Positions 527-21,636 of a stretch of DNA of 23,774 bases are shown piece after piece. Position numbers and translations under genes: made by a program. The notes below the pieces were generated by a model. That model was not told the origin of the DNA and searched no databases. It saw only the letters and a list, made by a program, of their open reading frames with translations. Source of the DNA: a virus; IMG/VR virus record IMGVR_UViG_3300035034_001295, positions 1-23,774 of that record. One strand, written 5' to 3'. How positions within the stretch are numbered: position 1 is the stretch's first letter; each line of letters starts with the position of its first letter.

Positions 527-550
527 CCTGCGCGTCACTGCCGCTTATAC
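527..550 (+). promoter_or_regulatory. Late-type promoter, copy A
   Basis: CCTGCGCGTCAC is followed after 6 nt by TTATAC. The TATA-like box begins 29 nt before the ATG at 574, the right distance for a leaderless archaeal transcript. It is one of six copies in the window with identical core-to-box spacing. Confidence 0.6.
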
Positions 551-573
551 GACCCACAGCCGGACTGCCAGGT

Positions 574-735
574 ATGTCGAACCAACAGACCGGCGGAACT
601 GCAGGCGGCCCTAGCGGGTTCACGATGGGCGGGCCGAACGGGGCGACAGCCGGGTCCTATCGCGACGTCCGATCTAGCATCGACCTGGAAGCCCAGCCAT
701 CCAGCATCATCAGCATCGACGGGAAGGGTGACTGA
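574..735 (+). CDS. 53-aa glycine-rich protein sharing a peptide with the distal tail protein
   Basis: The start is set by promoter copy A, whose TATA-like box lies 29 nt upstream; the frame could extend back to 493 but that would run through the promoter. Residues 7-25 are GGTAGGPSGFTMGGPNGAT, identical to residues 61-79 of the distal tail-like protein encoded at 20975. The rest is polar and acidic. The TGA overlaps the ATG of the next gene (TGATG), so the two are translationally coupled. I recognise no fold. The shared peptide hints at a structural role at the tail tip or a common partner, but this is inference. It could also be a fragment left by recombination. Confidence 0.5.
   Translation: MSNQQTGGTAGGPSGFTMGGPNGATAGSYRDVRSSIDLEAQPSSIISIDGKGD
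592..648 (+). repeat. 57-nt duplicated coding segment, copy 1
   Basis: Matches 21155-21211 at 55 of 57 positions. The two differences (597 and 612) are at third codon positions and are synonymous. Both copies are read in the same frame and encode the same 19 residues. Confidence 0.9.
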
Positions 736-1079
736 TGGCCGATAGCCTGGAAACCCGCCAGAACGTCCGGCTGACAGCAGGCGATTCGAAGACGCTGAAG
801 GTCGCTGTCACCGACGACGCTGGCGACCCCGTCGACATCAGCGGGACGACCATCAGATACGCAGTCGTCGAAGGACGTGGCGGGGCGACTGTAGCTTCGA
901 AACAATCTAGCATCACCGTCACTGACGCGGCTGGCGGCCTGTTCGAAGTCTACCTGGTCGGTGACGACACCGAAGGCCTGCTGGGCGAATACTGGCATGA
1001 AGCCGAATATGAAGACGCGACTGGCGACGTGTCGACCGTATTCACGGGGGCGTTCATCGTCCGGCCATCCAGCGCCTGA
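735..1079 (+). CDS. Ig-like beta-sandwich structural protein (BppU N-terminal-like)
   Basis: A 114-aa protein whose ATG overlaps the preceding stop. The sequence follows a pattern common in phage structural proteins: an N-terminal strand with 'AGDSKTLKVAVTDDAGDPVD', then 'ISGTTIRYAVVEG', a strand ending in 'DAAGGLFEVYLVGDDTEGLL', 'GEYWHEAEYEDATGDV' and a last strand 'TVFTGAFIVRP'. This resembles the beta-sandwich at the N-terminus of baseplate upper proteins and of many small tail or fibre attachment proteins. Its place between terminase and portal is unusual for a tail protein, so it may instead decorate the head or neck. The gene ends 51 nt before the portal start and has no visible terminator. 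Confidence 0.55.
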   Translation: MADSLETRQNVRLTAGDSKTLKVAVTDDAGDPVDISGTTIRYAVVEGRGGATVASKQSSITVTDAAGGLFEVYLVGDDTEGLLGEYWHEAEYEDATGDVSTVFTGAFIVRPSSA

Positions 1080-1084
1080 CCGAC

Positions 1085-1108
1085 CCAGCGCGTCACGGTC
1101 CCTTAAGC
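1085..1108 (+). promoter_or_regulatory. Late-type promoter, copy B (portal operon)
   Basis: CCAGCGCGTCAC, 6 nt, then TTAAGC. The box begins 28 nt before the portal ATG at 1131. It would drive the 7.7-kb unit from the portal to the MuF protein. Confidence 0.6.
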
Positions 1109-1130: not shown

Positions 1131-3695
1131 ATGGAACCCGCCGAATCTTCTGAAGTCGCCGCCGCTGGCGACGATGTCGCGGGGACGGTCACACTGCAGG
1201 ACGGGTCCGAACTGCCTGTCTCACTGGATGCCAGCCTGGTCGATGCCGCCCAGGACGCTGGCGTCGACGTCGACCGTCTTCGATCTGCGGCAGTCCCGGA
1301 TGGCGCGATGGTCGATCTGACAGCCGCCACTGATGGCGATACGTCTGCGACCATCCCAGTCCAGGACCATCGCCAGACTGACCTGACGAATCGACTGCGA
1401 CAAGATCGCGACTTTCAGTTCATCCAGGACGACCAGATCAGGCGGCTAATCAGGAATAGCGTCAACTACACCGAACGGGTGGGCCGCTTTCTGCTGGCCC
1501 GTGATGACCTTATCCCGACCGTAAAGGAACGGCTGAAGTCGCTGATCGTCGGTCACGAAGGGCTGGAAGTCGAACCCGCAGACCCCGACAGCGACACCGA
1601 TCAGCGCCTGGGCGATCTGCTGGCTGATCGCTACGAAACCGACATCAAACCTGACGAAATCATCGACGTCATCCTGCGCGAAAACCTGATGAACGCCAGG
1701 GCTGTTCTGCGGTCGACCGATCTGAAGGAACTGGACCTGGCGACGCTGGACTACCTGCGCGACGGGCTGACTGGCGAAGAAATCTATGTCCAGGACCAGA
1801 CGACCGTCTACAGCTTCGATGTCGACGATGGCCAGGATGACGACGCCTATCCAGGCATCGACCTGGAAACAGAGACTGTCGACGCCCAGCCGCTGATCAT
1901 CGGGGAACACGTCTTCGACATCAGTCTGTATGACACCCCGCCACTGGAAGCCGTGGCCGATACGGCAGTCAACAAGATGGTTCTTCAGCGGCTGAAGGCC
2001 CGGAAGGCCGAAATCACGTCGTTCGGCGCGGTATATGCGAAGGTCGAACCGCCCAGCTACCTGCCTGAAGATCAGTACTTCGACCGGGTCGCTGACGACG
2101 ACTGGGATGGCGAAGGCCAGCCGCCGACGAAGCTAGAACGGGCCATGAAATCGAACATCCAGTCGGCCTTCGACACGCTGAAAGACTTCCAGTCGGGGAC
2201 TGTGATGTCGGTCCCAGACTTCTGGTCGCTGGAACAGTTGGATATTCCCGAATCTGACGACCCTATCGACGACCAGATCAGGGGCTACAATCGCGATATT
2301 TCCCGTCGACTGCTGGTCCCGCTGGACCTGATCGAACTGGAAAGCGGGTCGGAACTGTCCCGCGAAACCATGTTCCAGACGCTGATGACGACCATCGCTG
2401 GCTGGCGGGGTGAAATCAAACGCATATTCGACCAGTACGCTGAAGCTGTGGCCGACATCGAAGGCATCAACGGGTCGATAAACCACACCTTCCCGCCACT
2501 GCGCGACACCGATGCCGAACAGGTGGTCAGCGCCCTGCAGTATGCGGGCATCGCAGGCCTGTCTGAAAAGGAAGTCCGCCAGATGATGAACACCGTCCAG
2601 GGTGTCGACCTGGAAACCGATCTGGACCAACTGGAAGACGGCCAGATGCCTGCTGATGGCGGGCCGGATGACCCTGGCCAGCGAACCCAGCAGATGACCC
2701 AGTTCATGGACGAACAGCGCCGCGGGCCTGCCGATCAACAGCCGGACCAACAGCCTGCCCAGCAGGGCGGCCAGCAGGCCGGTCAGCAGACGCCCGCCAC
2801 TGCCGCCGACGCTGGGGTCTTCGAAGCCACGGTCTACCGCGTGGCGGCCCCTGACGAAGATGCTGATCAGTACGATGATCGCGTCCTGGGCATCGCCATC
2901 GACTTCCCGAACAGCGGGGTGTATGTCGACTGGCGAAACGAAGTCTTCCCGAACGAACTGGACGGGTCCCACGTCTCAATTTACAGCAGTATCAGCGATC
3001 TGGAACAGGCGACTGGGAACGTGACCGAAGCCATCGAAACCATCGGGGTCGAAGCCGCCGAAGCCATGATCGACGAAGACGCCGACACGCTGTTCGATCA
3101 GGGCGGCCAGCAGGTCCGCGAAGCCGAATCTGACGAACAGGCCCGCGATCTGCTGGCTGAAACGCTGGAAGCGCGGACGTCAGTCGATGATGTCGACCTT
3201 CAAAATCTCAATAAACAAAATGCGGCAACGATGGCCGAAGGCTTCGAACCCTTCCTGGACGCGGATGGCGATGACGACCCGTTGGGTGATGTCGAACAGG
3301 TGCGTGATTACGACATCAACGGCACAGCGAACGCCGCATATGAGGTTGGTCAGAACGCGCTGACGTTCCGTAATTCATCTATGACGGGCCATGATGACTA
3401 TGAAGGCTATTTGGCCCGTAATACTGGACAGGGGACGGTCGCCCACGAAATCGGTCACGCCCACGCATACGGAAAACTGGGCGACGACTACTTCTTTCAT
3501 GTTTTTTGGCCAGATGTTTCCCAGGAAGACATGGATTTGATCGAATCTGAAGTGAGTGAATATGCAATACAAAACGCCGAAGAAATGATAGCTGAAACCT
3601 ATTCAGTATTGGCTGACGGACAGGAAGTCGACAACAGGGTGATGGAAATATACAAGGAAATGCGTGGTCCGATGCCGCCAGGGGTGGGTGAATAA
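1131..3695 (+). CDS. Portal protein with C-terminal metallopeptidase-like (HExxH) domain
   Basis: 854 aa, much longer than a usual portal (400-550 aa). Residues about 90-500 look like a portal: an early helical segment with DRDFQFIQDDQIRRL, then a late region with YNRDISRRLLVPLDLIELESG and a helix IKRIFDQYAEAV. The portal forms the dodecameric DNA gate at one capsid vertex. Residues about 505-560 are a Gln/Pro-rich linker. The remaining about 290 residues end in a second domain with HEIGHAHAYG (H772, E773, H776) and, some 45 residues later, AEEMIAETY, where E817, E818 or E822 could be the third zinc ligand as in gluzincin-type peptidases. The last about 500 nt are visibly less GC-rich than the rest, suggesting that the domain was added later. 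The start fits promoter copy B. The TAA overlaps the next ATG (TAATG). A prohead or host-directed protease role is inferred. Confidence 0.75.
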   Translation: MEPAESSEVAAAGDDVAGTVTLQDGSELPVSLDASLVDAAQDAGVDVDRLRSAAVPDGAMVDLTAATDGDTSATIPVQDHRQTDLTNRLRQDRDFQFIQDDQIRRLIRNSVNYTERVGRFLLARDDLIPTVKERLKSLIVGHEGLEVEPADPDSDTDQRLGDLLADRYETDIKPDEIIDVILRENLMNARAVLRSTDLKELDLATLDYLRDGLTGEEIYVQDQTTVYSFDVDDGQDDDAYPGIDLETETVDAQPLIIGEHVFDISLYDTPPLEAVADTAVNKMVLQRLKARKAEITSFGAVYAKVEPPSYLPEDQYFDRVADDDWDGEGQPPTKLERAMKSNIQSAFDTLKDFQSGTVMSVPDFWSLEQLDIPESDDPIDDQIRGYNRDISRRLLVPLDLIELESGSELSRETMFQTLMTTIAGWRGEIKRIFDQYAEAVADIEGINGSINHTFPPLRDTDAEQVVSALQYAGIAGLSEKEVRQMMNTVQGVDLETDLDQLEDGQMPADGGPDDPGQRTQQMTQFMDEQRRGPADQQPDQQPAQQGGQQAGQQTPATAADAGVFEATVYRVAAPDEDADQYDDRVLGIAIDFPNSGVYVDWRNEVFPNELDGSHVSIYSSISDLEQATGNVTEAIETIGVEAAEAMIDEDADTLFDQGGQQVREAESDEQARDLLAETLEARTSVDDVDLQNLNKQNAATMAEGFEPFLDADGDDDPLGDVEQVRDYDINGTANAAYEVGQNALTFRNSSMTGHDDYEGYLARNTGQGTVAHEIGHAHAYGKLGDDYFFHVFWPDVSQEDMDLIESEVSEYAIQNAEEMIAETYSVLADGQEVDNRVMEIYKEMRGPMPPGVGE

Positions 3696-6600
3696 TGCCG
3701 CCACTGCGCCAGTCAGACCTGCCTGAAGGTCTGGCAGATGAAAACTTGACGTTCATCAGTAGTGTCATCGAAAAGCATCCAGAAGCCGCTGAACGTGCTG
3801 GCTACACGCTGGACAGTCGGCCCGAAGCCAGCGTCGACCCAGTGGCCGCATCAGGGTCGGTCGAAGCCCGTCGATCAGGCGGGTTAAGCGACGAATCGCT
3901 GGCCATCCTGCGAAACGTCCCGTTCTTCCCGGACTTCAGCGACGACGGCCAGGTCGATCTGGAACGAACCAACCTTCGAAACTGGCTGGCCTGGGTGCTG
4001 GCCGGTCGACCGTCGATGGAAGCCTTCGACCCGATTCTACACCCACGGGGTCCTGACGGCAGCTTCGTCGAACGACCCTGGGACATCCCTGACAGCGTCT
4101 GGGACGTCGTGAACAACCTGGACGGGGGCAACACACTGGACGCGCTGGTCGACGCAGATGAGCTGACCGACAGCCAACTGAACACGCTACTGCAGGACCC
4201 GAATCTACATATCGACGACGTCCCAGACGACATCGACGACGTCGACGAACTGCGTAAACGAATCGACCAGGGCGACACGCCGCTACTGGACGATGTCGAC
4301 GACGTTCCAGATGGCGGTGATGGGGGTGGCAGTGATGGCGATGGCGATCTGACGCTAGATGACATCTTCCCAGGCGATGATCGCTTCGTCGACACTGAGG
4401 AAGCCATCGACGGCATCGAAAGCGGGGACTTCGTGAAAATTCAGCGAAAACCGCAGTCCCAGAACGACCCAGAAGTCGCAGTCGTCGACCGTAATGATGC
4501 GGGTGTGGTCTATGTCGAAACTAAAGATGACGAACGGCTGACGCTGGGGACTAATGGAACGGGGCCTGCGCGCATCCAGGGCGTCTTCGTCGATGATGGC
4601 GAAGGCGACGGCGCTGGCCGGAACCAACCGGCTGACTTCCCAGACCTGGACGACGTCCGGGGAACGACAGACCCGCGCTTTGAGGTGGTCGGGCGGAACG
4701 ACCCAGAGACTGGCGACATCGTTCGCTGGACGACTGGGCCGACCGAATCGGGCATCGGGGAAGTCGTCGACACGCGGTTCAACGGGGCCGAACACACTAT
4801 CCGAACGCCTGATGGCGAAGAAATCGAACTGGGCATCAACGAAGACGCTGACGTCACGGGGGCCATCCAGACCGACAGCCCACTGTATAGCGTCACGCCA
4901 GACGACCCAGGCGATGGGCGCTGGGAAACAGGCGTCTTTTCGGCATCTGAAGGCGACACTGTCCGATTCAACAGTGACGACGGCCCGAAGATCGGTCGGA
5001 TTCAAAGCGAAAGTATGGGCCAGGCCACTGTCGTCGAACCGGACGGCAATCTGGCCGAAATTGAGTCGGACGATCTGACTGGGAAGTTCCAGCTATCAAC
5101 GCCTATCGACCCTGAAGACTTCGTCACTCTAGACGACCGCGACACGGTCGACCTGACTGATCGGGCTGGCCAGCGTGGCGTCGACTTCGCAGCAGACGTT
5201 CGCGAAGACATCGACACCGGGACCTACCTGTCAGAAGACCCCATCCCTGAAGCGATGGTCGAAGACGAAAAAGTCCCAGTCGGGTCGGTCATCAGCCATC
5301 GCGAAACATATGGTGACTTCCCGGCAGTCGTGACTGGCTACGGCGAAAACTTCCGTGGCGAAAAGACGCTGGAACTGCGGAAGGGTTCAGGAACTACCAT
5401 ATCCGAATCCAGTTCCCGCATCAACGGCCAGGGCTGGCGGCCATACAAGCCACGGGCCGAACCAACAGTCAGCATCGACGCCGACTGGGGCGACGACATC
5501 CCACGGGCTGAAAAGCGACAGGCGGTGAAAGAGGCGCTGGACGACATCCTACCGAAATCGCCAGATCATAATCGGAACCTGCCAGGCGACACGCTATCGA
5601 ACCTGGACATCGACGACGAAACCTTCGATAAGGTGAAAGACCAGGTCGCCGCCGAACTGTCGAAGGCCCGCAGTCGCGATCATGCCGAAAAAGTCATCGG
5701 CGGTCTGATGGCAGTGGGTGATTCGAAAAGTCGGGCATCCGCATCACCTGACGTCGACGAAATCGACGGGTCCCGGTCCCGGTTCCAGGTCAGCAAAGAC
5801 GATACTGAAAGCACTATCGTCCATGAACTGGGCCACAGTGTCGGGATGATCTACGGCCAGAAGGGCGGGTCGAACGACATGGATGGCGAAACCCACCCGA
5901 TGCCGGACTTCGCCTGGCAGTCGCCAAAATATGACGTCCCACAGCGATACGGCATGAAGACCCCGCCTAACAGCTCAGACTATGACGAATCAAAACCCCT
6001 GAGCGAACAGGCATCGTTCGGCCTGGACCGCTGGCAGGACGAAGTCGACGCCCAGGTCGGAACTGGGCTGGATGGCCGCAACTTCAGCAACGTCGATACG
6101 CTGGAAGACATCCCTGCCCAGGAAGGCGCGATGATCCAACTGGAAAGCGCGCCATCCTACGGCGACCCGAAGGTCTGGCGCATCGCATCGGTCGAAGAAC
6201 AGGAAGATACAATGGGCGAAACCAGATCGCGTGTCATCTTAGAATCGCGTGATGGGACACAGCACGAAGCTGTCCTACAGAGTAGCTTCGGGGAAGCCCG
6301 TGTCGACTGGGGCGATGACGCGCCGTATCTGGGGGCTGGCGACACTATCAGCAGGAAGCGGAACGGGACGCCAGACAACTGGCGCGAAGACCCACCAAAT
6401 GCCGATGACTGGCTAGGAACCCAGAGCATCGACGACACTGACGAAGCGATGCTGAACCTGGGCGAAATGGTGAACAAATCCTGGTATCGACAGGCCGCCG
6501 CCAGCCGGGAACTGGGGCCTGAAGATGCGAAAAAATACAGCATCAAAAGCGGCTACAGTACCAAACAGGCGCATGAAACGATGTCACGCATCCATGAAGT

Positions 6601-6850
6601 CATGCGAAGCGACGGCATGAACAGCCTGGGGCGGGCAAAAGCCGCCCGGACGCTGATAAAATACCATCCTGACCTGATCGAAGCCTACAGGCAAGTGTAT
6701 GATATGCCGGTCGGTATGAAACAGGCAATGAACGCGGTCGCAGAACGCGAAGGTATCGACTACAGATTCGACGTCATCGACCCCGATATGCCGGGCGATA
6801 TGGACAGTCGACTGATGGACGATATACGGGACCTATACGGTGAAAACTAA
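3695..6850 (+). CDS. 1051-aa head-associated protein with SH3-like barrels and a second HExxH motif
   Basis: Coupled to the portal by a 1-nt overlap. Residues about 110-130 carry HPRGPDGSF followed by RPWDIP, a short motif frequent in phage minor head proteins. An Asp-rich segment follows, then barrel-like units beginning 'GDFVKIQ' (about 241), 'GDIVRWTTG' (about 340), 'GDTVRFNS' (about 418), 'PVGSVISH' (about 526) and 'EGAMIQLES' (about 809). The second resembles HVA-TUDOR/KOW-like small barrels (GD-x-V-R-W, then G-x-V, then a D-x-P-Y-x-V ending). HELGHSVG (H710, E711, H714) lies between barrels and suggests a zincin. The metzincin third-ligand position is occupied by Tyr, so the third ligand is unclear. 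The last about 140 residues are helical and less acidic. It probably enters the head with the portal and MuF proteins, perhaps as an injected or maturation protein. The function is not established. Confidence 0.6.
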   Translation: MPPLRQSDLPEGLADENLTFISSVIEKHPEAAERAGYTLDSRPEASVDPVAASGSVEARRSGGLSDESLAILRNVPFFPDFSDDGQVDLERTNLRNWLAWVLAGRPSMEAFDPILHPRGPDGSFVERPWDIPDSVWDVVNNLDGGNTLDALVDADELTDSQLNTLLQDPNLHIDDVPDDIDDVDELRKRIDQGDTPLLDDVDDVPDGGDGGGSDGDGDLTLDDIFPGDDRFVDTEEAIDGIESGDFVKIQRKPQSQNDPEVAVVDRNDAGVVYVETKDDERLTLGTNGTGPARIQGVFVDDGEGDGAGRNQPADFPDLDDVRGTTDPRFEVVGRNDPETGDIVRWTTGPTESGIGEVVDTRFNGAEHTIRTPDGEEIELGINEDADVTGAIQTDSPLYSVTPDDPGDGRWETGVFSASEGDTVRFNSDDGPKIGRIQSESMGQATVVEPDGNLAEIESDDLTGKFQLSTPIDPEDFVTLDDRDTVDLTDRAGQRGVDFAADVREDIDTGTYLSEDPIPEAMVEDEKVPVGSVISHRETYGDFPAVVTGYGENFRGEKTLELRKGSGTTISESSSRINGQGWRPYKPRAEPTVSIDADWGDDIPRAEKRQAVKEALDDILPKSPDHNRNLPGDTLSNLDIDDETFDKVKDQVAAELSKARSRDHAEKVIGGLMAVGDSKSRASASPDVDEIDGSRSRFQVSKDDTESTIVHELGHSVGMIYGQKGGSNDMDGETHPMPDFAWQSPKYDVPQRYGMKTPPNSSDYDESKPLSEQASFGLDRWQDEVDAQVGTGLDGRNFSNVDTLEDIPAQEGAMIQLESAPSYGDPKVWRIASVEEQEDTMGETRSRVILESRDGTQHEAVLQSSFGEARVDWGDDAPYLGAGDTISRKRNGTPDNWREDPPNADDWLGTQSIDDTDEAMLNLGEMVNKSWYRQAAASRELGPEDAKKYSIKSGYSTKQAHETMSRIHEVMRSDGMNSLGRAKAARTLIKYHPDLIEAYRQVYDMPVGMKQAMNAVAEREGIDYRFDVIDPDMPGDMDSRLMDDIRDLYGEN

Positions 6851-7758
6851 TGTACGACATCCATCGCAGATCAGACGGTTCGAAGGTCGCATCATTCACG
6901 ACAGACCCCTACAGTAAAACGATCATCGCTGATGCTGGCCCAGGCGTTCGACAGGTCCTGAAAGACGTCGAAGACCTACAGCAGATGAACCGGACAGTCT
7001 TCGAAGGGACAGCGGCCTATCCTGGCCCAGAGACTGACGAATCATTCGACCCGACGTCGATGGAAGGCTACCAGGACCCGTCCGCCGACTATATCCTGTC
7101 GACGATTCACGACGTGTTACGGGATGGGTATATCATCAACGAAGTCGACGAAGTCCAGGCCCAGGCCGAACGCCTGGAAGCCGCGTTCAGCGAAGGCCAG
7201 GAAGTCGACACGCCGGACGGCGATGGCGTCATCGTCGAAATCCGAACGGAAGACTTCGACGGTCCAGATGGCGACGTCGAAGCGTCTGATGACGACCCAG
7301 CCTATGTCGTCGGGGTCGAATCGGGGGCGAAAGTCTACCGCGATAGCGACCTGTCTGATGGGTCGATCAGCGTCGACGGCGTCGACGACGCGACGGGCGA
7401 TCTGGCCGTCGAAGCCGCCCGCGCTGGACACGGGCCGTCAGTCGCGGCGCTGAAAGAGCGATACACCCAGGGTCAGATCGACGAAGACCGCTTCGACCGG
7501 CTGGTCGGGGCGGCCCTAAAAGCCCAGTTGGACGACACCGCCGAAGCCGCAGGCGACGATGGCCGCCAGTTCGACTACCCAGACAGTTGGGATGAAAGCC
7601 CGACACCGAACCGGATTATCCTGCTGAAAGCCTGGGCTGGACTGGGTGGGCGGTTCACGACGTGTCGACGGAAGATGAAAGGCGACGTGGCCAGCCCAGC
7701 CCGCTTCTGCGCGTCGATGAAAGATCGCGTCCTGCTGTGGGAAGGCTGGCGGCAGTGA
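6850..7758 (+). CDS. Putative head morphogenesis protein with SH3-like barrel and Cys/Arg C-terminal motif
   Basis: 302 aa, overlapping the previous stop by 1 nt. The N-terminal part is mixed and acidic. Residues about 115-175 form one small barrel-like unit (EGQEVDTPDGDGVIVEI, then DDPAYVVGVESGAKVY) similar to those in the protein upstream. The C-terminus changes character: PNRIILLKAWAGLGGRFTTC, then RRKMKG, then FCASMKDRVL and EGWR, with two Cys, several basic residues and conserved-looking aromatics. A similar ending (C, R-K-M, F-C-A, K-D-R, W-R) is one I associate from memory with proteins encoded beside MuF in haloarchaeal viruses. Position in the portal to MuF operon points to a head or injected protein. 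The exact role is unknown. Confidence 0.5.
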   Translation: MYDIHRRSDGSKVASFTTDPYSKTIIADAGPGVRQVLKDVEDLQQMNRTVFEGTAAYPGPETDESFDPTSMEGYQDPSADYILSTIHDVLRDGYIINEVDEVQAQAERLEAAFSEGQEVDTPDGDGVIVEIRTEDFDGPDGDVEASDDDPAYVVGVESGAKVYRDSDLSDGSISVDGVDDATGDLAVEAARAGHGPSVAALKERYTQGQIDEDRFDRLVGAALKAQLDDTAEAAGDDGRQFDYPDSWDESPTPNRIILLKAWAGLGGRFTTCRRKMKGDVASPARFCASMKDRVLLWEGWRQ

Positions 7759-8807: not shown

Positions 8808-8840
8808 TAACTAACTATCATGATCTGATCGGTCAGTAGG

Positions 8841-8860: not shown

Positions 8861-8875
8861 GAGTGAGTCATAGCC

Positions 8876-13192: not shown

Positions 13193-13194
13193 TC

Positions 13195-13608: not shown

Positions 13609-13611
13609 CGT

Positions 13612-13950: not shown

Positions 13951-14399
13951 TGCCAACTATCACCGACAGCGATCTGGGTTCGACATACTGGTGTACCAGC
14001 GAAGATGTTCGCGACGACTTCCAACTGGAAATCAGGAACCGCGAACCGGACTTCGACCGGCGCATCCAGCGGGCGACCAGGCGCGTCAGGGCATGGTATG
14101 AGGACGCCGCCGGGCAAGAGGCCCCAAACACCCCACCCGCCTTACTGCGGGACGCTACGGCCCTGATGGCGGCCAGTCTGGCCCATCAGGCATTTAGTCA
14201 GAACATCAGCGGTGACAACGGGGGCGATCAGCGCCACGTATTTCTGGAAGATGCCGCCCAGGACACCTTCGAAGACTGGAAGGACCAGGCCGATCTGGAC
14301 CCAGGAAGCGAACCTAAGGGCGATGCCAGCGACACGATTACCGGGCAGTCTGGCGTCATCGGCGGTCGCGACCGTTCACCGATCTACAGGGGCGACTGA
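13950..14399 (+). CDS. Head-tail connector (adaptor) protein
   Basis: 149 aa, start overlapping the previous stop (TAATG). The pattern YWCTSEDVRDDFQLEIRNRE, then FDRRIQRATRRVRAWYEDAA and LLRDATALMAASLAHQAFSQ is that of the small all-helical adaptor proteins (HK97 gp6/SPP1 gp15 type) that bind the portal ring below the head. The order capsid, adaptor, gp10-like, tail terminator, tube is the standard one, which supports the call. The C-terminal about 35 residues are Gly/Asp-rich and probably flexible. Confidence 0.6.
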   Translation: MPTITDSDLGSTYWCTSEDVRDDFQLEIRNREPDFDRRIQRATRRVRAWYEDAAGQEAPNTPPALLRDATALMAASLAHQAFSQNISGDNGGDQRHVFLEDAAQDTFEDWKDQADLDPGSEPKGDASDTITGQSGVIGGRDRSPIYRGD

Positions 14400-14401
14400 T
14401 C

Positions 14402-14929
14402 ATGGCGAAGAACCGCCTGTCGCTGGGGATGGACCTGCGCGATGCCATCGCCCAGATGGAAGACGCCCCAGACGCCGTCGAAGACGGGGCCAGCCGGGCG
14501 GTCAAACAGCTAGCTGTGCTGGCCGAAGGGCCGATGAAAAAAGAAGCCCCAGAAGGCACAGGACGCGACAAACACCTTCGCGATACCATCGACACGAAGT
14601 TCAGGCGAAACGGGCTGACGGCGAACGTCGGGGCCAGGAAACGGACGTCAGACGGGGAACTGCTGGCCGCGATCATCGTCGAAGGAACTGATGCGACTTC
14701 CTACCAGACACAGCCGCCGTATGGGCCGCTGGTCGCCTGGGCAGATGCGAAGCTGGGCGAACCGGGCATCGGCTACTATCTGGCCGAAAAGATCGGTCGC
14801 GAAGGCCACGAAACCCTGCCGAACGATTACGTCGACAGATCGCTGGATGACTGGGAAGGCCAGGTCGGGGACGTCGCGGGGGACGCCGTTCGCGATGCCC
14901 TGTCGCGGCTGATGCGGGGGGCTGACTGA
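14402..14929 (+). CDS. HK97 gp10-like neck/tail completion protein
   Basis: 175 aa. It begins with a helix typical of the family (LRDAIAQMEDAPDAVEDGAS, then RAVKQLAVLAEGPMKKEAPE), continues with GRDKHLRDTIDTKF, a strand LTANVGARKRTSDGELLAAI and the motif YGPLVAWADAKLGEPGIGYY, where family members usually carry a G-x-x-Y/F-P-x-x-v-x-x-G region. It ends with helices (YVDRSLDDWEGQVGDVAGDA, then LSRLMRG). Proteins of this family sit between head and tail or cap the tail. Coupled to the terminator gene that follows: its TGA overlaps the ATG at 14929. Confidence 0.65.
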   Translation: MAKNRLSLGMDLRDAIAQMEDAPDAVEDGASRAVKQLAVLAEGPMKKEAPEGTGRDKHLRDTIDTKFRRNGLTANVGARKRTSDGELLAAIIVEGTDATSYQTQPPYGPLVAWADAKLGEPGIGYYLAEKIGREGHETLPNDYVDRSLDDWEGQVGDVAGDAVRDALSRLMRGAD

Positions 14930-15426
14930 TGCCGATGGACCTGTCGAACCCGACCGGGTTTAACAAGTTCTGGGACGACACCGTCGGTCAGTTCCGGGCC
15001 GAAGCTATCGACGACCATCTGGACGGGGGGAACCTGGATGCGGTCAACGAACATATCACGGGCGCTGTCGACCCCGACACGCTGGCGGCCCAGTATGCCT
15101 TCCCGGTCGTCTGGTCGGTCCCGACGAACCACAGCCCAGACTATGCGACTGTGGCGACCGATCAGGGAACGCTATCGTTCCAGGTGGTCACGCTGGCCGC
15201 CGACACCGACCCAGACATCGCACTGCAGAAGGCCAGAACGCTGGGCGGTCGTATCGTGAACAACGTCGAAGGGTCGGCCCTGGTCGACGACAGCGGGACG
15301 GCCCACGCCGCCCGTGTCGATCTGGACGACTTCCAGCTAGACAGCCGCCCGATCAGCGGTCAGGGCGCGCAGGTGAAATACTGCGAACTGGCCTTCGCGA
15401 TCAGAACTGAACGACGATACCCATGA
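14929..15426 (+). CDS. Tail terminator protein
   Basis: 165 aa located exactly where the tail terminator (lambda gpU/HK97 gp10 neighbour) is expected. N-terminal helix (NKFWDDTVGQFRAEAIDDHL), then strands YAFPVVWSVP, GTLSFQVVTLAADTDPD, a long helix IALQKARTLGGRIVNNVE, and closing strands RVDLDDFQLDSRPISGQGAQ and KYCELAFAIRTERRYP. The alpha/beta alternation fits the gpU-like fold that stops tube polymerisation and docks the tail to the head. Identification is from fold-like pattern and position, not from strong sequence motifs. The next gene starts inside its stop (ATGA). Confidence 0.55.
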   Translation: MPMDLSNPTGFNKFWDDTVGQFRAEAIDDHLDGGNLDAVNEHITGAVDPDTLAAQYAFPVVWSVPTNHSPDYATVATDQGTLSFQVVTLAADTDPDIALQKARTLGGRIVNNVEGSALVDDSGTAHAARVDLDDFQLDSRPISGQGAQVKYCELAFAIRTERRYP

Positions 15427-15809
15427 CCAGAGAACTACCACGAACAGACGCTGAAGCCCGCGACTTCGTCCAGTTCCGCGGCCCCCAGACGTCGGTGTCG
15501 CATGACCCGACTGGGGTGCATTTCGGGACTGAACGCCGTCACGGACGGATAGCTCACAAACCGCTACCAGTCGTCGACGACGATGCCGATCTGGATGACG
15601 TCCCGGATGACGCCATCGCCCGGTCGGTGGCCGACGTGCTGACCGAACGAAACCCGCTGGTCTGTTGGGGTGTCGCCTGCGAAGTCTGCGGCGACGTCTT
15701 CGACAGCCCGAAAGCGGTGAACAGCCATCAATCGGCCCACAAAACAGGTCCCGACACGGGGCCGGACGGGTCCGGGGCCGACGATGGGGGCGACGATGGC
15801 GACCGATAG
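15423..15809 (+). CDS. C2H2 zinc-finger protein in the tail module
   Basis: 128 aa, overlapping the terminator gene by 4 nt. The C-terminal part carries a textbook classical zinc finger: C86-x2-C89-x12-H102-x3-H106, with Phe at position 93 (three residues after the second Cys) and a hydrophobic V99, the core positions of the beta-beta-alpha finger. Just before it is another Cys (C81) in NPLVCWGVACEV. The N-terminus (RDFVQFRGPQTSVSHDP, then VHFGTERRHGRIAHKPLPVV) is beta-like, and the tail is a Gly/Asp-rich run. It is the last gene of the capsid operon. It could be a minor structural protein using zinc for stability, a regulator or a chaperone. DNA binding is not shown by the sequence. Confidence 0.65.
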   Translation: MTRELPRTDAEARDFVQFRGPQTSVSHDPTGVHFGTERRHGRIAHKPLPVVDDDADLDDVPDDAIARSVADVLTERNPLVCWGVACEVCGDVFDSPKAVNSHQSAHKTGPDTGPDGSGADDGGDDGDR

Positions 15810-15833
15810 CCAGCGCGTCACGCCACGCTAAGG
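15810..15833 (+). promoter_or_regulatory. Late-type promoter, copy D (tail tube)
   Basis: CCAGCGCGTCAC, 6 nt, then CTAAGG, starting right after the stop of the zinc-finger gene and 34 nt before the tail tube ATG at 15862. No other start codon lies between, which fixes the start of the tube gene. Confidence 0.55.
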
Positions 15834-15861: not shown

Positions 15862-16866
15862 ATGTCCATCGGACAATTGCCCCAGTCCTTCCGCGGTTAC
15901 GTCGGGCTGGCAAAAGAATCGACGTATGGAACCGGGGTCGAACCAGTTTACTTTGTAGACGCGACCAGCGACGGTTTTAGCATGGATAACCAGCCTGACT
16001 TCCAGAACACGACACGGGGTCGGGCCACCTACAAGGGCGAAGCTGGGGTCTTCAGCGACGAAGGGGCCATCGACCTGCCTGCGAACCCAGAGAACGGTCT
16101 GGGCCTGCTGTTGCTGGCCGCCTTCGGCAGTGAGACATTCACGTCGACGGACCCAGACGGCGACAGCACTGACGAAGTGGGCGAACACGTCTTCGTCCCG
16201 GCTGATACCCTGGATTCGCTGTCAGTCGAAGTCGACCGCGACACCGACGTCCTGCGGCATCTGGGCTGTGGGGTCGACACGCTGGAACTGTCCCACACAA
16301 ACGGCAATATGCTGACCGCGTCTGCCGACCTGATCGCGAAGGAACCCGACGGTGATGTCACGGCGGCCAGTCCGTCCTACAGTGACCTTCGAAACTTCCG
16401 ATGGCATGACATCAGCATCACCGTCGACGGGACCAACCGGGACACCGACATCACCGAAGCGACGTTCAGCATCGCGAACAACCTGTCACCACAGACCCGC
16501 GGCGAACGGACGCTGTCGAAGATGTCTGTCGGTGAACGGGTCATCACCGCATCGCTGTCGCTGGACTTCGAAAACACCGATCTGTTCGAAAAGTTCCTGG
16601 GCGAAGCGAACGCCACGTCGGTCCAGGACCAACTGGCGACCATCGGCGTCGAAGCCGAATGGACCAGCCCCGAAACCATCGACGACACGTCGACGGGCTA
16701 CAGCCTGCGCTGGAATATGCCGAATTGTACGATCAACACGGACGAAGCCCAGATCAATCAGAACGACCACGTCATCGAAAACATCGAACTGCGGGCGCTG
16801 TATGACAGCAGTCTGGGCGCTGAAGCCGAAGTCCAACTGGACAACGGCATCCTGAACGCCTACTGA
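15862..16866 (+). CDS. Major tail tube protein
   Basis: 334 aa, a monocistronic unit with its own late promoter and a T-run after its stop, which suits a protein needed in many copies. The N-terminus (FRGYVGLAKESTYGTGVEPV, then YFVDATSDGFSMDNQPDFQN) is the typical beginning of phage tube proteins of the 'tail tube' family, where an early A-x-E-x-x-Y-G-T motif is common. Alternating strands follow (DVLRHLGCGVDTLELSHTNG, then MLTASADLIAKEPDG, ITVDGTNRDTDITEATFSIA), then KMSVGERVITASLSLDFEN, and it ends with VIENIELRALYDSSL. The tube polymerises into stacked hexamers around the tape measure protein. Confidence 0.75.
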   Translation: MSIGQLPQSFRGYVGLAKESTYGTGVEPVYFVDATSDGFSMDNQPDFQNTTRGRATYKGEAGVFSDEGAIDLPANPENGLGLLLLAAFGSETFTSTDPDGDSTDEVGEHVFVPADTLDSLSVEVDRDTDVLRHLGCGVDTLELSHTNGNMLTASADLIAKEPDGDVTAASPSYSDLRNFRWHDISITVDGTNRDTDITEATFSIANNLSPQTRGERTLSKMSVGERVITASLSLDFENTDLFEKFLGEANATSVQDQLATIGVEAEWTSPETIDDTSTGYSLRWNMPNCTINTDEAQINQNDHVIENIELRALYDSSLGAEAEVQLDNGILNAY

Positions 16867-16947: not shown

Positions 16948-16965
16948 GGTGTGTGTGTGTACACA
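16948..16965. repeat. Alternating TG/CA tract with palindromic end
   Basis: GGTGTGTGTGTGTACACA; its last ten bases (TGTGTACACA) are a perfect palindrome. The tract is nearly the reverse complement of 17492-17509 inside the following gene and shares its core with GTGTACAC at 17103-17110. Confidence 0.7.
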
Positions 16966-17046
16966 GACCCTACTCGAAGGTAAGGCGGACACCGACCAAA
17001 CAGCCAAACAGCCGCCAGCAGGCCGCTACCGACCGTCCCGCTTTAG

Positions 17047-17099
17047 CACGAGTAGTAGTAGTAGTATTGGAACTAAAAAATATATTATAACAACTCGTG
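17047..17099. repeat. 7-bp inverted repeat around an A/T-rich loop
   Basis: CACGAGT at 17047-17053 and ACTCGTG at 17093-17099 enclose 39 nt that include the AGT triplet run and an A/T tract. It may be an operator pair or chance in an A/T-rich stretch. Confidence 0.4.
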
Positions 17100-17167
17100 T
17101 CGGTGTACACACACCGGGTAGTTATTATAAATATTCAGTCGATGTTTGTATGTAACTATACTTAACC

Positions 17168-17204: not shown

Positions 17205-17921
17205 ATGTCTGACAGAAAACAGCCGACACCAATCGACGAAGACGAATATGAACGCTTTGTTCAGTTCGTTAAAGACGTTCATGGCGGGACGCGGGGCCAC
17301 CTTCGAACTGAAATCGAAAACGCCCTTAGAGAGTACCGACGCGACTTCTATGGCAGTTCTGACGAACTGGCGCGAATCGAAGACGACGTCGCGCAGATCA
17401 AAGCAATGCAGGCAGAACTGACTTCGATGCTAGCTGAAGCTGACGGTGGGACGACTGCGCCTGCCCCCGCCCCAGACGTTCGGACAGCCGATGTACACAC
17501 ACACACACCTTCGGATAATACAAACAACGACGACCAGGGTATGCAGACCGCCGACCCGGCAGTCGACCCTGATCATGACCCTGACGACCCACCCCACGCG
17601 AAGTCGACGACGAAGTCGAAGGTCGACTGGGTCGAAGCTGAAGTCCGGCGTCGATCTGCAGACCAGTCGTTCAGCCGACCTGCGGTCAGGAAGCTGATCG
17701 ACGACGCCTGGGGCTTCGCTGATCGAACCGCTGACCCGATGGTCGAAACCGTGGTCGAAGATCGCCTGGAAGCCTGGGTCGTTCCGAACACGAAGGGGAT
17801 GACCATCGCCTGGGGCGACAGCGACCGCGACAACGTGGCCGAAGACGACGCTGACGACGTCGACGCCGAACTGGACCGGCTGGACGATGCGGCGGCGGCG
17901 ACCCGCGACAGCGACGACTGA
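17205..17921 (+). CDS. Putative RHH-type DNA-binding protein inserted in the tail module
   Basis: 238 aa. The N-terminal region (residues about 12-45: DEYERFVQFVKDVHGGTRGH, then LRTEIENALREYRR) matches a pattern frequent in haloarchaeal ribbon-helix-helix-like proteins, where R-G-H-L-x-x-E-I-E-x-A-L-R-E-Y is the second helix. A helix with coiled-coil character follows (DDVAQIKAMQAELTSMLAEA). A long Pro/Asp/Thr-rich linker comes next, then a basic helical C-terminal domain (KSKVDWVEAEVRRRSADQ, then FSRPAVRKLIDDAWGF) and an acidic tail. It sits alone between tail tube and chaperone genes, with an A/T-rich promoter and symmetric elements upstream, like a moron or an autoregulator. The VHTHTP stretch in the linker is encoded by the (AC)n tract. 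Confidence 0.55.
   Translation: MSDRKQPTPIDEDEYERFVQFVKDVHGGTRGHLRTEIENALREYRRDFYGSSDELARIEDDVAQIKAMQAELTSMLAEADGGTTAPAPAPDVRTADVHTHTPSDNTNNDDQGMQTADPAVDPDHDPDDPPHAKSTTKSKVDWVEAEVRRRSADQSFSRPAVRKLIDDAWGFADRTADPMVETVVEDRLEAWVVPNTKGMTIAWGDSDRDNVAEDDADDVDAELDRLDDAAAATRDSDD
17492..17509. repeat. Intragenic CA/TG tract
   Basis: TGTACACACACACACACC is nearly the reverse complement of the tract at 16948-16965, about 530 nt upstream, differing by roughly one dinucleotide unit. The pair forms a long-range inverted repeat that spans the promoter and half of the gene. Confidence 0.65.
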
Positions 17922-17946: not shown

Positions 17947-17970
17947 CCAGCGCGTCACGCTGGGTTAAGG
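17947..17970 (+). promoter_or_regulatory. Late-type promoter, copy E (tail chaperone/tape measure operon)
   Basis: CCAGCGCGTCAC, 6 nt, then TTAAGG, whose box begins 29 nt before the ATG at 17994. The core is embedded in a perfect dyad: CCAGCG, 5-nt spacer CGTCA, CGCTGG. Confidence 0.65.
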
Positions 17971-17993: not shown

Positions 17994-18413
17994 ATGTCGA
18001 CAGACCAATCCGGCGAACACCGTGTCCCTGATCAATCGACGTATGAACAGCAGACAGCCGACACCAACTGGGTCGATCTGGAAGACGGCGATGGGTCGTT
18101 CGAAATCCAGGAAGTCGCGCCGCTGAAGCTCCTGCGCGATATGCGGAAATACGGCGTCGCTGGCCTGCTGGGTGGCGACAAGAACGACGTCGACATGGCC
18201 GCCATGCTGGAAGACGGCGACTTCGACGCCTTTCTGGAAAAGACGGTTCTGCCGAACATCATTCAGCCGAAATGCTACTGGTCGGACGTCGGGTCGGGCA
18301 ACTTCGATATAGCCGCCCTGACGCCGAACGATCTGATGATCGTCATCACCGGGATGACTGGTCAGGACCGCGACGAACTGGATGAAAAGATGGACGAAAC
18401 CTTTCAAGGATAA
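17994..18413 (+). CDS. Tail assembly chaperone, upstream frame (lambda G-like)
   Basis: 139 aa directly before the tape measure region. It begins with an acidic, polar stretch, then APLKLLRDMRKYGVAGLLGG, a middle helical part (DVDMAAMLEDGDFDAFLEKT, then VLPNIIQPKCYWSD) and ALTPNDLMIVITGMTG. The size, acidic helical character and position agree with the first of the two overlapping chaperone frames found in siphoviruses, which bind the tape measure protein during tail assembly. The stop falls in an overlap with a second frame, and the site TTT C at 18402-18405 would allow a +1 shift into it. The start is set by late promoter copy E. Confidence 0.65.
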   Translation: MSTDQSGEHRVPDQSTYEQQTADTNWVDLEDGDGSFEIQEVAPLKLLRDMRKYGVAGLLGGDKNDVDMAAMLEDGDFDAFLEKTVLPNIIQPKCYWSDVGSGNFDIAALTPNDLMIVITGMTGQDRDELDEKMDETFQG

Positions 18414-18717
18414 TCCCATCGCGCTTCAGGCCCATCTGTTAGGAAAAGAATATGGTATGATGCCCACAGAGACGATGAACCGGCCCGCCTGGGACTTCTG
18501 GATGAACGCCCGCATCCGCGCCGCTGGCGTGGCCTGGGAGAACGAACAGAAAAAGAAGGCCCAGAACAGCGGCAATGCTGGGTCAGCGACCGATGCCCAG
18601 AAGGGCCAACTGGTCGACTCAAATGAAGATCGGGCCGACCGTCGCGAACGCCAGGACGGGTCCCAGCCGTCGATCAGCGATCAGATGGCGGCCTTCGAAG
18701 GTCAGGGTGGTAGCTGA
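18382..18717 (+). CDS. Tail assembly chaperone, frameshifted C-terminal part (lambda T-like)
   Basis: An open frame in the +1 register relative to the upstream gene, overlapping its last about 55 nt and ending with TGA coupled to the tape measure ATG (TGATG). From KDNPIALQAHLLGKEYGMMP onward it reads as a helical domain (MNRPAWDFWMNARIRAAGVA), then a Lys/Gln/Ser-rich tail ending FEGQGGS. The apparent initiator at 18382 has no ribosome binding site, and the first eight residues (MKRWTKPF) look like out-of-frame reading of the upstream gene. The sensible product is therefore a fusion with the upstream frame made by +1 slippage at 18402-18405. An independent start cannot be excluded. Confidence 0.6.
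   Translation: MKRWTKPFKDNPIALQAHLLGKEYGMMPTETMNRPAWDFWMNARIRAAGVAWENEQKKKAQNSGNAGSATDAQKGQLVDSNEDRADRRERQDGSQPSISDQMAAFEGQGGS
18402..18408 (+). promoter_or_regulatory. Candidate +1 ribosomal frameshift site
   Basis: The zero frame reads TTT CAA GGA TAA. A tRNA-Phe on TTT can re-pair with TTC one base on, giving AAG GAT AAT in the +1 frame and bypassing the stop three codons later. The +1 frame is open only from 18358, so any shift must occur between there and 18413. Confidence 0.5.
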
Positions 18718-20972
18718 TGGCCGAATCAGCGAACGTCGACATCCTGATCAATGCGTTCACGGATGCGGCAGAACAGGCCCTGGACGACGTCGGGGATGGC
18801 CTGCAGAACCTATCGGGCGATGGCGAACTGGCCCAGGTGATGCTGGACGAAGTCGCTGACGAACTGGATGACGTGACGACGTCCAGCGTGGGCGCTGGCG
18901 AAGCGATGGACGGCATCGACGCCGAACAGCTAGCTCTGGCTATGCAGGCACTGGCATCGCGAACTGACGAAGCGGGCGACCAGATCGCCCAGGCAGGCCG
19001 CAGGGCCGCCGTAACGACTGGCGTGTTCAACAGCCTGACCGTGTCGACGAACGGGCTATCCATCGCGATGTCGGGGCTGTCGACGGCGATGATCGCGTCA
19101 CTCATCCCTGCGGTGGGCATCCTGCTGTCGACGCTGGTCCCACTGGTCGGGGTGCTGGGCTTCGTGGCAACTGCCGGACTGTCACTGGCGGCTGTCTTCG
19201 GCGGCCTGGCGGTCGCTGGGGTGGTCACGCATCTGGAAGAACTGAAGGCCGCCCTGCAGGATGCGAAGGTTCAGATCATGGAAATCATCGGGCCACTGGG
19301 CGACGTCTTCGGCCCGCTGTTGATCGACGCGGTCGAAGCCCTGCCTGAACTGGTCAGACGCATCGTCGACAGCCTGGGACCGCTGGACCAGTTCGCGAAC
19401 ACACTGCGGGAACTGGGCGCGACCGCGATGGACGCCATCCCGGCGCTGACGGGCGTCATGTTCACCCTGGCGACCGAAGCCCTGCCGAAAGTAATCGACC
19501 TGATGGACTGGCTGATGGCGAACGGCCCAGGCATCCTGTCCTGGATGCGCGATGCGACAGATGCCCTGGCAGGCCCGCTGATGCGAATGGGGTCTGCGAC
19601 CGCCGATCTGCTGGGTTCGATGAACGAACTGGGTATCGTGGCGACCCAGTTGCTGGTCCCTGGACTGATCAAAATCTTCGACGCTATCGGCCAGGCCATC
19701 GACTTCGTGATGAACCTGGACGACGCCATGCGCGATCTGACGGTCGCGACTGGCATCACCGCCCCGATCATCTTCGGCATCGCGGCGGCCCTGGGGTCAC
19801 TGCTGGGGCCGCTGGGCGTCGCGGCGGCGGCGGTGACGGCGTTTGTCGCGGCCTACCGATCAGACTTCATGGGCATCCAGCAGATCGTCGACGACGTCAT
19901 CAGCGACGTCATCGACCTGCTGTCTGGGCTGGCCAGTCACTTCGAACCGATCTTCGAAACCATCACCCAGACGCTGGACGACAACGAAGACAAGTTCGAA
20001 ACCTTCGGCCAGATGGCGCAGGACGCCCTGGACGGCCTGGTCAGCGTTCTGCGGACGGTGGTCATGCCAGCGATGCGGTTTGTCTTCGAAAACTTCCTGA
20101 TACCGCTGTTGGACCGCGTGGCCGACACCTGGGCCGACAACTTCGGTGAAATCCTGCGGGAAGTCATCGAAACGATCAACGCTGTGGTAGCGTTCATCCA
20201 GCCCACCCTGGCGGCGATGGCGGCCTTCTGGGAACGCCACGGCGATGCCATCACGACAGCTGTAAAACTGGCCTTCGACATCGTCATCAGCATCATCAGC
20301 TTCGCGCTGAACGCCGCCTATACGGCCATCAAAGTCGTTCTGAACCTGATTCAAGGCGACTGGAAAGAAGCGTTCGGGAACATCGCTGACTTCCTGGTCG
20401 ACACGCTGATCGGCATCCTGGACTTTATCGACCGCTGGAACATCGTCGAAATCTTCCTGGGGGCCTTACGCGGCATGATCAGCGGGGCCATCACCCTGGT
20501 TACAGTCACCCTGCCGAACATCTTCATTCAGGGTCTGGCGACCATCATGACCCTGTTCCAAAACTTCGGACCTGCGCTGGCCAATACGATGCTGGCGATC
20601 TGGAACGGTATCGTCGGCATCATCGTCGACGGGGTGAACGGCATGGTCCAGACCGTGACCGACGGGCTGAACGGGCTGATCGACCTGTTCAATGAGGTCG
20701 CTGGCGAAGTGAACCGCCTGGAAGGGATTGATCTGCCGACACTGGACGGCCTGGAAGCGACGACCATCGACGCCAGCCGACTACAGCAGGACCGCGGCCA
20801 GATCATCGACAGTCGCGACCGGGCGGCTAATGCCCGGCAGATCAGATCGGAAGTGACCCTGGCCATCGAAGGCACTGGCGACCTGGCCGACCTAATCCGC
20901 GACAACGTATCGGCTGAAACCGACCGGCAAAGCCGGGAAGATACCCGGCGTGAACGCCGACAGAACGCATAA
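18717..20972 (+). CDS. Tape measure protein
   Basis: 751 aa, the longest tail gene, directly after the chaperone pair. It starts with helical segments (ILINAFTDAAEQALDDVGDG), then a long hydrophobic region (residues about 106-171: NGLSIAMSGLSTAMIASLIP through VFGGLAVAGVVTHL), another at about 348-380 (APIIFGIAAALGSLLGPLGV), and further amphipathic and hydrophobic helices (AFDIVISIISFALNAAY). This mix of long helices and hydrophobic stretches is characteristic of tape measure proteins, which fill the tube lumen, set tail length and enter the host membrane on infection. At about 0.15 nm per residue a tail near 110 nm is predicted (inference). No peptidase or lysozyme motif was noticed. Confidence 0.8.
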   Translation: MAESANVDILINAFTDAAEQALDDVGDGLQNLSGDGELAQVMLDEVADELDDVTTSSVGAGEAMDGIDAEQLALAMQALASRTDEAGDQIAQAGRRAAVTTGVFNSLTVSTNGLSIAMSGLSTAMIASLIPAVGILLSTLVPLVGVLGFVATAGLSLAAVFGGLAVAGVVTHLEELKAALQDAKVQIMEIIGPLGDVFGPLLIDAVEALPELVRRIVDSLGPLDQFANTLRELGATAMDAIPALTGVMFTLATEALPKVIDLMDWLMANGPGILSWMRDATDALAGPLMRMGSATADLLGSMNELGIVATQLLVPGLIKIFDAIGQAIDFVMNLDDAMRDLTVATGITAPIIFGIAAALGSLLGPLGVAAAAVTAFVAAYRSDFMGIQQIVDDVISDVIDLLSGLASHFEPIFETITQTLDDNEDKFETFGQMAQDALDGLVSVLRTVVMPAMRFVFENFLIPLLDRVADTWADNFGEILREVIETINAVVAFIQPTLAAMAAFWERHGDAITTAVKLAFDIVISIISFALNAAYTAIKVVLNLIQGDWKEAFGNIADFLVDTLIGILDFIDRWNIVEIFLGALRGMISGAITLVTVTLPNIFIQGLATIMTLFQNFGPALANTMLAIWNGIVGIIVDGVNGMVQTVTDGLNGLIDLFNEVAGEVNRLEGIDLPTLDGLEATTIDASRLQQDRGQIIDSRDRAANARQIRSEVTLAIEGTGDLADLIRDNVSAETDRQSREDTRRERRQNA

Positions 20973-20974
20973 TA

Positions 20975-21559
20975 ATGACATCAGTACCAGTAACAGATTT
21001 GGCCTGGACGTTCGACCCTGACCGATCAGACGGCGGCGTCCTGGTCGACAGCATTGATTCGGACATGCCTGAATACAAGCCAGGCAAGTCGTTCAGCATG
21101 GACTTCGTCTTCTGGCAGAACACCCAGGACACAGCGACCATCAAAACCGCATCTGGCGGGACTGCAGGCGGCCCCAGCGGGTTCACGATGGGCGGGCCGA
21201 ACGGGGCGACACTGGGTTCGACCGAAGCCGACCCGTCGGGCATCCCGCGGTATGAAAAAGTCCGCGAATACAGCCGCTGGGCCGGGCGCTTCGTCCTGGA
21301 CCACGCCATCGACGGGACGCCCCGGTTCACCGAACACACCCCGGACAGCGCGACCGTCGACAGCATCGTCGTCAAACTGGTCCCTGGCGATGGCCTGGCG
21401 GCGACCGATGGGCTATGGGTGCTGATCGACGACGTCGATGATCGCACCCGCTTCGCGAAGGACACAGCCCGCATCGGCCTGACGATGACCGTGCTGGCGC
21501 GTGGCGATGAATATGCGACCCGGACAGACATCAGAAATACGCTGGGGTCTGATCTGTGA
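20975..21559 (+). CDS. Distal tail (Dit-like) protein
   Basis: 194 aa beginning 2 nt after the tape measure stop. In siphoviruses this slot holds the distal tail protein that joins the tube to the tip. The sequence is beta-rich: VPVTDLAWTFDPDRSDG, GGVLVDSIDS, FSMDFVFWQNTQDTATIKT, then the Gly-rich insert GGTAGGPSGFTMGGPNGAT (residues 61-79), VREYSRWAGRFVLDHAI and a final part VDSIVVKLVPGDGL, LWVLIDDVDD, RIGLTMTVLARGDEY. The insert is shared almost base for base with the 53-aa gene at 574, which makes it look like a mobile loop. The assignment is by position and fold character. A hairpin and T-run follow the stop. Confidence 0.55.
   Translation: MTSVPVTDLAWTFDPDRSDGGVLVDSIDSDMPEYKPGKSFSMDFVFWQNTQDTATIKTASGGTAGGPSGFTMGGPNGATLGSTEADPSGIPRYEKVREYSRWAGRFVLDHAIDGTPRFTEHTPDSATVDSIVVKLVPGDGLAATDGLWVLIDDVDDRTRFAKDTARIGLTMTVLARGDEYATRTDIRNTLGSDL
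21155..21211 (+). repeat. 57-nt duplicated coding segment, copy 2
   Basis: Second copy of the segment at 592-648 (55 of 57 identical, both differences synonymous), here as an internal Gly-rich loop of the distal tail-like protein. Confidence 0.9.
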
Positions 21560-21600
21560 GGCGACCAGTCGCCACAGCCGACCGCTGACGCTCTTTTCGG
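21555..21600 (+). terminator. Hairpin plus T-run terminator
   Basis: GGCGACCAGTCGCC at 21560-21573 folds into a short GC-rich stem directly after the TGA, and TTTT occurs at 21594-21597. Late promoter copy F begins shortly after, so a transcription break here is plausible. Confidence 0.4.
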
Positions 21601-21611
21601 TCCCTACCATG

Positions 21612-21636
21612 CCCAGCGCGTCACGCTGGGTTAAGG
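21612..21636 (+). promoter_or_regulatory. Late-type promoter, copy F (adhesin)
   Basis: The GCGCGTCAC core lies within CCCAGCGCGTCACGCTGGG, a perfect 7-bp dyad with a 5-nt spacer, followed by TTAAGG. The box begins 28 nt before the ATG at 21659. Confidence 0.65.

Follow-up and report, generated by a model that had tools for sequence, protein, structure and literature searches.

How archaeal tailed viruses time the expression of their late genes is largely an open question. The transcriptome of HFTV1 revealed tight temporal control, antitermination and alternative polymerases seemingly being absent (PMC12542753), and a review of archaeo-viral transcription factors described one viral regulator able also to activate (PMC5569661). 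At the gas-vesicle promoters of haloarchaea, the upstream activating sequence (UAS) of GvpE adjoins the B-recognition element (BRE), and the two have to be this close together (PMC4390858). Haloarcula hispanica tailed virus 1 (HHTV-1) has been called a genomic singleton, and no motif of the kind considered here was reported for it (PMC3950731). We found no published description of this promoter family, a mention of which is possible in the original HHTV-1 genome paper (PMC3737338).

The window analyzed here is a whole IMG/VR contig of 23,774 bases and represents a partial genome. Megablast against 50,697 phage records returned no match, and in phage nucleotide databases HHTV-1 alone was found, at a distance. 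HHTV-1 (NC_021322, Clampvirus, Madisaviridae) is a cultivated virus. Its head and tail genes are homologous to those of the window and syntenic with them, with orthologues of the portal, gpF, protease, tail, and tape-measure genes in order, and the capsid proteins are 53% identical. In PHROG searches, the major capsid protein matched phrog_1005, the product of 15862-16866 a tail PHROG, and that of 18717-20972 tape-measure PHROGs. Judged by these homologous, syntenic head and tail genes, the partial contig can be placed with the HHTV-1 group. About twenty related contigs were collected by IMG/VR protein searches, and most were examined at full length.

The initial annotation of the window had described six copies of a shared core, starting at positions 530, 1088, 10036, 15813, 17950, and 21616, each followed by a weak TATA-like box and located just before a gene. 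All six cores were re-found in the sequence, with exactly 6 nt between the core and the box in every copy. CCA precedes the core in five of the six, copy 1 being the sole exception. The distances from box to ATG, measured on the sequence, agreed with those claimed, namely 28-29 nt in four copies and 34-35 nt in two. All copies are on the plus strand. Copy 1 (527-550; CTGCGCGTCAC-N6-TTATAC) is located 29 nt from the ATG at 574 and precedes a small ORF (574-735) and the ORF 735-1079. Copy 2 (1085-1108; CCAGCGCGTCAC-N6-TTAAGC) is located 28 nt from the ATG at 1131, which opens the portal-region operon (1131-8807). Copy 3 (10033-10056; CCAGCGCGTCAC-N6-TTTTAT) is found 35 nt before the ATG at 10086, ahead of a putative prohead protease/scaffold-capsid operon (10086-15809), and copy 4 (15810-15833; CCAGCGCGTCAC-N6-CTAAGG) 34 nt before the ATG at 15862 of a tail gene (15862-16866, phrog_290). 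Copy 5 (17947-17970; CCAGCGCGTCACGCTGGGTTAAGG, box TTAAGG), which contains the inverted repeat CCAGCG-N5-CGCTGG, is separated by 29 nt from the ATG at 17994 of the tail-assembly/tape-measure operon (17994-21559). Copy 6 (21612-21636; box TTAAGG), overlapped by the inverted repeat CCCAGCG-N5-CGCTGGG, is separated by 28 nt from the ATG at 21659 of the tail-fibre ORF, which runs to the contig end. The six elements, together with two AT-rich promoter-like regions devoid of the element (before the genes starting at 8876 and 17205), account for all substantial gaps between transcription units up to the tail fibre.

To estimate the level expected by chance, the window was submitted to 500 dinucleotide shuffles. 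The 9-mer GCGCGTCAC was present seven times on the plus strand and never on the minus strand, against a shuffle mean of 0.28 per strand and a maximum of 3. The seventh exact occurrence (13551-13559, plus strand) is internal to the CDS 13168-13608, has no TATA box, and was not counted as a promoter. The 9-mer followed by a box at 6-7 nt was found five times in the window and in none of the 500 shuffles. If one mismatch was allowed, the 9-mer alone was not enriched (12 matches versus 16 expected). Thus, the signal consists of the exact core, the box, and the position. The six elements are almost certainly promoters.

To assess conservation, a 19-position weight matrix was built from orthologous sites and used to scan both strands of 18 sequences. 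Counts were taken from 16 viral records, two short fragments being left out. Strong matches numbered 59, and 58 of these were on the late-gene strand. Related genomes were thereby scanned for elements distant from gene starts, a test set beforehand. Of the 59 matches, 53 precede an ORF start, at 28-30 nt from the box in 40 cases and at 33-36 nt in 13 more, two spacing criteria that are together satisfied by about 10% of random positions. The same 53 sites have the arrangement of leaderless-type promoters, a TATA-like box with the start codon a constant distance downstream. Seven of the genomes cover the early block, and all 30 of their strong elements were outside it (P = 0.002). These counts support the proposal of the initial annotation that the elements define a late, structural-gene regulon.

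Since the matrix was built partly from the sites that it counts, controls with clade-only matrices and held-out contigs were needed. With matrices derived from the HHTV-1 clade only or from the G003 clade only, five of the six window copies were, in each case, the five best sites on the plus strand. Two window copies scored above the 95% shuffle maximum with the former matrix and four with the latter. A minus-strand match of the HHTV-1-clade matrix (score 15.1) was judged to be due to chance. Four contigs found solely through the orthologue of the gene starting at 8876 (g8876) served as the held-out set (L109, L116, L118, and L122). All four contained the element, on the plus strand only, at 28-30 nt before the next ORF, portal and tail genes among them, and at 34-35 nt before the protease gene.

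In the relatives, the element is again found ahead of portal, protease, and tail orthologues. Portal elements orthologous to copy 2 were detected in G001, G002, G005, HHTV-1, G011, and G012, and in the held-out contigs L109, L118, and L122. The protease orthologues retain the box-to-ATG spacing of 33-36 nt, including those of L116, L118, and L122. Orthologues of copy 1 are located at 2163 in G003, 3962 in G004, 25960 in G005, and 17088 in G006, and the ORFs that follow them share a GG-x-x-GGPxGF motif. A weaker match in HHTV-1 (49064) is followed, across the permuted ends, by gene 1. G013 contains only weaker, diverged matches, and G015 no strong element. Based on sequence comparison, the same signal before matching genes of about twenty related viruses is very probably a switch for the late genes.

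Two loci of HHTV-1 (L060) deserve mention. The annotated start of gene 19 (15199, in the region 15176-15223) coincides with, or directly follows, the TATA box of a weak element. All other protease orthologues have a spacing of 33-36 nt, which designates instead the ATG at 15223. The element of the major tail gene (20931-20986) is internal to the final part of gene 27, at a distance of 42 nt from the ATG, and is degraded in G009-type relatives. Some members of the family may therefore no longer have this promoter of the major tail gene, as judged from these sequences.

Alignment of the sites revealed that the block conserved across the relatives is CCA, 0 or 2 nt, and GCGTSAYG, ending about 5-6 nt upstream from the box. 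The leading GC of the 9-mer initially described is not conserved. In the window clade, CCA is followed by two variable bases, GCGTCACG, a low-information spacer where the BRE would be, and TTWARG, a weak TATA box. The HHTV-1 clade has a GCGTSAY core, with CCA moved two bases towards it. The clades thus differ by GTCAC versus GTSAY in the core and by a 2-bp shift of CCA. The initial annotation had located the conserved part where the BRE and upstream activators bind. The upstream block stands, but the 6 nt beside the TATA box are variable, and no recognizable purine-rich BRE was found there in the window clade. Low information at the BRE combined with a weak TATA box is as expected for dependence on an activator.

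The initial annotation had suggested a virus-specific activator or a virus-specific TFB. Given the atypical boxes and the multiple TFBs and TBPs of haloarchaea, the conserved part could be a modified BRE, recognized by a TFB that is either viral or an alternative one of the host. We regard this as very improbable since no part of the element is less conserved than the BRE position, and the TFIIB family (PF00382) was detected in none of 10 viral records, some of them partial, in searches that were positive for the archaeal control genomes. The variable BRE position and the lack of a TFIIB-family match favour an activator that would bind upstream.

The core CGTSAYG forms an odd palindrome, which extends to CCAGC-GTGAT-GCTGG in HHTV-1 and to CCAGCG-CGTCA-CGCTGG in copies 5 and 6 of the window. 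The outer right arm is not generally conserved, and the palindrome was rejected as a defining feature, the inner CGTSAYG alone being symmetric throughout. The symmetry of the core may indicate a dimeric binder. Stem-loops at promoters have been proposed for T4-type phages and for HGTV-1, and inverted repeats are present in window copies 5 and 6 and in copies of HHTV-1, as would be expected if the repeats were recombination cassettes or RNA stem-loops rather than primarily promoters. This explanation is extremely improbable, if only marginally more so than the altered BRE: the outer arms are unconserved in most copies, the position relative to box and ATG is conserved, and the elements occupy orthologous rather than shuffled places. 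The element has no match in Rfam, indicating that it is no known RNA element.

A partly palindromic block beside a TATA box would also suit a dimeric repressor, and the characterized archaeo-viral regulators are mostly repressors (PMC5569661). The element could accordingly be an operator silencing the late genes, for example in lysogeny or early infection. However, HHTV-1 is listed as virulent (PMC4284463), and searches with the major capsid protein (MCP) among 84,980 genomes revealed no provirus relative. Moreover, a repressor would have little to repress, since the boxes of the window clade are weak. Repression is therefore improbable, and activation from the upstream block is the reading that we retain.

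Word usage differs between the members of the family. In HHTV-1, 35 tetranucleotides are below 10% of expectation, and AGCT, CATG, CTAG, CTCC, CTTG, GAGC, GGAG, and TGAG are absent. GTSAC sites are depleted (9 versus 112 expected), and we infer that the shift from GTCAC to GTGAT in the HHTV-1 element may follow from this avoidance. In the window, CGAG is found 4 times (169 expected) and CTCG 6 times (168 expected). No word avoidance was detected in the relatives G009, G010, G012, G014, and G015. The tail-fibre ORF displays a composition break (22340-23774), the last 1.8 kb of the window containing about half of all its GAG and CTC trinucleotides, which suggests that a segment of the fibre was acquired recently or, less probably, that the assembly is chimeric. 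Near-identical stretches at 590-655 and 21150-21220 encode GGTAGGPSGFTMGGPNGAT, within the 53-aa ORF 574-735 and the tail gene 20975-21559, respectively. A similar peptide, GGTLGGPTGFTLGG, is encoded after the first element of G003.

Taken as a whole, our preferred reading is that the window belongs to a lytic haloarchaeal siphovirus of the HHTV-1 group, in which the elements act as UAS-activated late promoters and respond to a factor that is most likely viral and for which gp16 is the best candidate. We consider this reading likely on balance. The UAS, composed of CCA, 0 or 2 nt, and GCGTSAYG, would be located beside a weak TATA box, with an unconserved BRE in between, and the mRNAs would be leaderless or nearly so, the ATG following the box by 28-30 nt, or by 33-36 nt for the protease. 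Late in infection, a factor bound to the UAS would recruit or stabilize TFB/TBP on the poor core promoter, thereby switching on together the operons for portal/head, protease/capsid, major tail, tape measure, and tail fibre, and in the relatives also for terminase. That the elements are late and activator-dependent is quite probable. The factor would most likely be encoded by the virus, which we hold with slightly less confidence than the reading as a whole, and the best candidate for it would be the product of 8876-9382, a member of the HHTV-1 gp16 family.

This gene, named in the initial annotation as coding for a candidate regulator, is on the plus strand and encodes a protein of 168 aa, predicted to be all-helical with a C-terminal helix-turn-helix (HTH) resembling sigma region 4. 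Upstream from it, the AT-rich promoter-like region (8840-8875, plus strand) contains TATTAATATG about 31 nt before the ATG and no late element. In most of the upstream regions inspected, in the window and in the relatives, the g8876 orthologues are likewise preceded by TATA-type or AT-rich sequences without the element, an arrangement that would be consistent with a factor produced ahead of late-gene expression. Two models of the protein (pLDDT about 70, pTM about 0.5) contain a four-helix, HTH-like C-terminal unit. In a PDB fold search with both models, sigma-region-4 structures were prominent among the best matches, all of which were non-significant (E > 1). Pfam, NCBIfam, and PHROGs gave no family assignment, no profile match being significant. 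A role as terminase small subunit (TerS) is unlikely since gene 1 of HHTV-1 matches TerS families (phrog_1889, E 4.7e-10; NF040601, E 3.1e-8, below its cut-off).

A g8876 orthologue was found in 15 of the 16 records. It is missing only from G015, which has no strong element, and it is encoded by G013 though the element matches of that genome are weaker and diverged. This co-occurrence is confounded by common ancestry since G015 is simply the most distant relative. The 8876 product is the best activator candidate found and may bind the element and activate. That gp16/g8876 is the late factor is a tentative proposal, and slightly more tentative still is the view that the gp16 family consists of late activators with a sigma-region-4-like fold, each binding the element of its own clade and recruiting archaeal TFB/TBP.

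As the assignment of g8876 rests on co-occurrence and a weak fold match, and as haloarchaea possess many regulators, a host transcription factor could activate the same promoters, late timing then resulting from DNA copy number or host state. Two observations make this unlikely. The clade-specific form of the element (shift of CCA, GTCAC versus GTSAY) is easier to explain with a viral factor that co-evolves, and the strict HHTV-1-type pattern is, among viral contigs, confined to the HHTV-1 family. Among 2.9 million viral contigs, this pattern, CCAGCGTSAYNCTGGTTTA, was found in 13 stretches of 10 contigs, all of that family, including two short terminase or terminase/portal fragments new to the set. 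The window-clade pattern was found in 79 stretches, 68 of those tested being without any family protein, and every contig with multiple copies was a family member. The loose pattern GCGCGTCAC-N7-TAAGG gave 48 single-copy matches, probably mostly due to chance. A viral factor remains the source that we prefer.

Other regulators were considered. The product of 17205-17921 (plus strand), predicted to be ribbon-helix-helix-like, is a weaker candidate, restricted to the window clade, and its gene is preceded by an AT-rich region without the element. Palindromes of the GTGTACAC type and (GT)n/(AC)n runs surround this gene or are internal to it (16950-17110 and 17490-17505) and are possible autoregulatory operators. 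HHTV-1 gp64, encoded by the most widespread early gene, gave no HTH reading. The 75-aa protein M4JGG7 of halovirus PH1 (L126, 1056-1283), probably gp04, resembles the g8876 model (Foldseek E 0.022, probability 1.00) and is the sole other viral protein with a confident Foldseek probability, a hint, from these models, that haloviruses may share a wider HTH family.

The question of late timing becomes directly testable with a late promoter that is shared across the family, has a defined upstream sequence, and occurs in a cultivated virus, HHTV-1, and with a named candidate activator. The element also provides a sequence handle for the prediction of operons and the correction of start codons in the HHTV-1 group. 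If the proposal is true, gp16 would be a dedicated late activator of archaeal tailed viruses, combining a bacterial-sigma-like domain with a eukaryote-like core promoter.

Repeated elements have been described in other haloviruses. The class I and II intergenic repeats of HF1/HF2 likewise have promoter activity, but they are long, AT-rich, and from another virus family, whereas the window element is short, rich in GC, and followed by a weak TATA box (PMC7230728). HGTV-1, like the window virus a haloarchaeal tailed virus, contains a repeated motif, with a TATA box and an inverted repeat, before many ORFs (PMC3950731). HGTV-1 belongs to an unrelated virus family, and its motif is compared here through the description in a citing paper (Sencilo et al. 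2013, in PMC3950731). The first 40 kb of HGTV-1 contain no copy of the late element. Among virus-encoded archaeal regulators, AvtR of an Acidianus virus can both activate and repress, but it is a ribbon-helix-helix protein that covers about 100 nt between two promoters and is no activator of a late regulon (PMC5569661). Ptr2 and TFB-RF1 are archaeal activators whose binding close to the core promoter recruits TBP or TFB (PMC5569661), as is proposed for the viral factor. They are host proteins. The UAS of GvpE differs from the viral core in sequence and length, since it extends over 20 nt, consists of two 8-nt parts with 4 nt of no importance between them, and is bound by the leucine-zipper-like GvpE (PMC4390858), whereas the viral core is shorter and only its inner palindrome is conserved. 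Both are nevertheless short upstream sequences located beside the BRE and TATA box at a constant, close spacing (PMC4390858). In the GvpE system, a weak promoter drives a structural operon whose expression is raised by a dedicated activator, and the same architecture is proposed for the virus.
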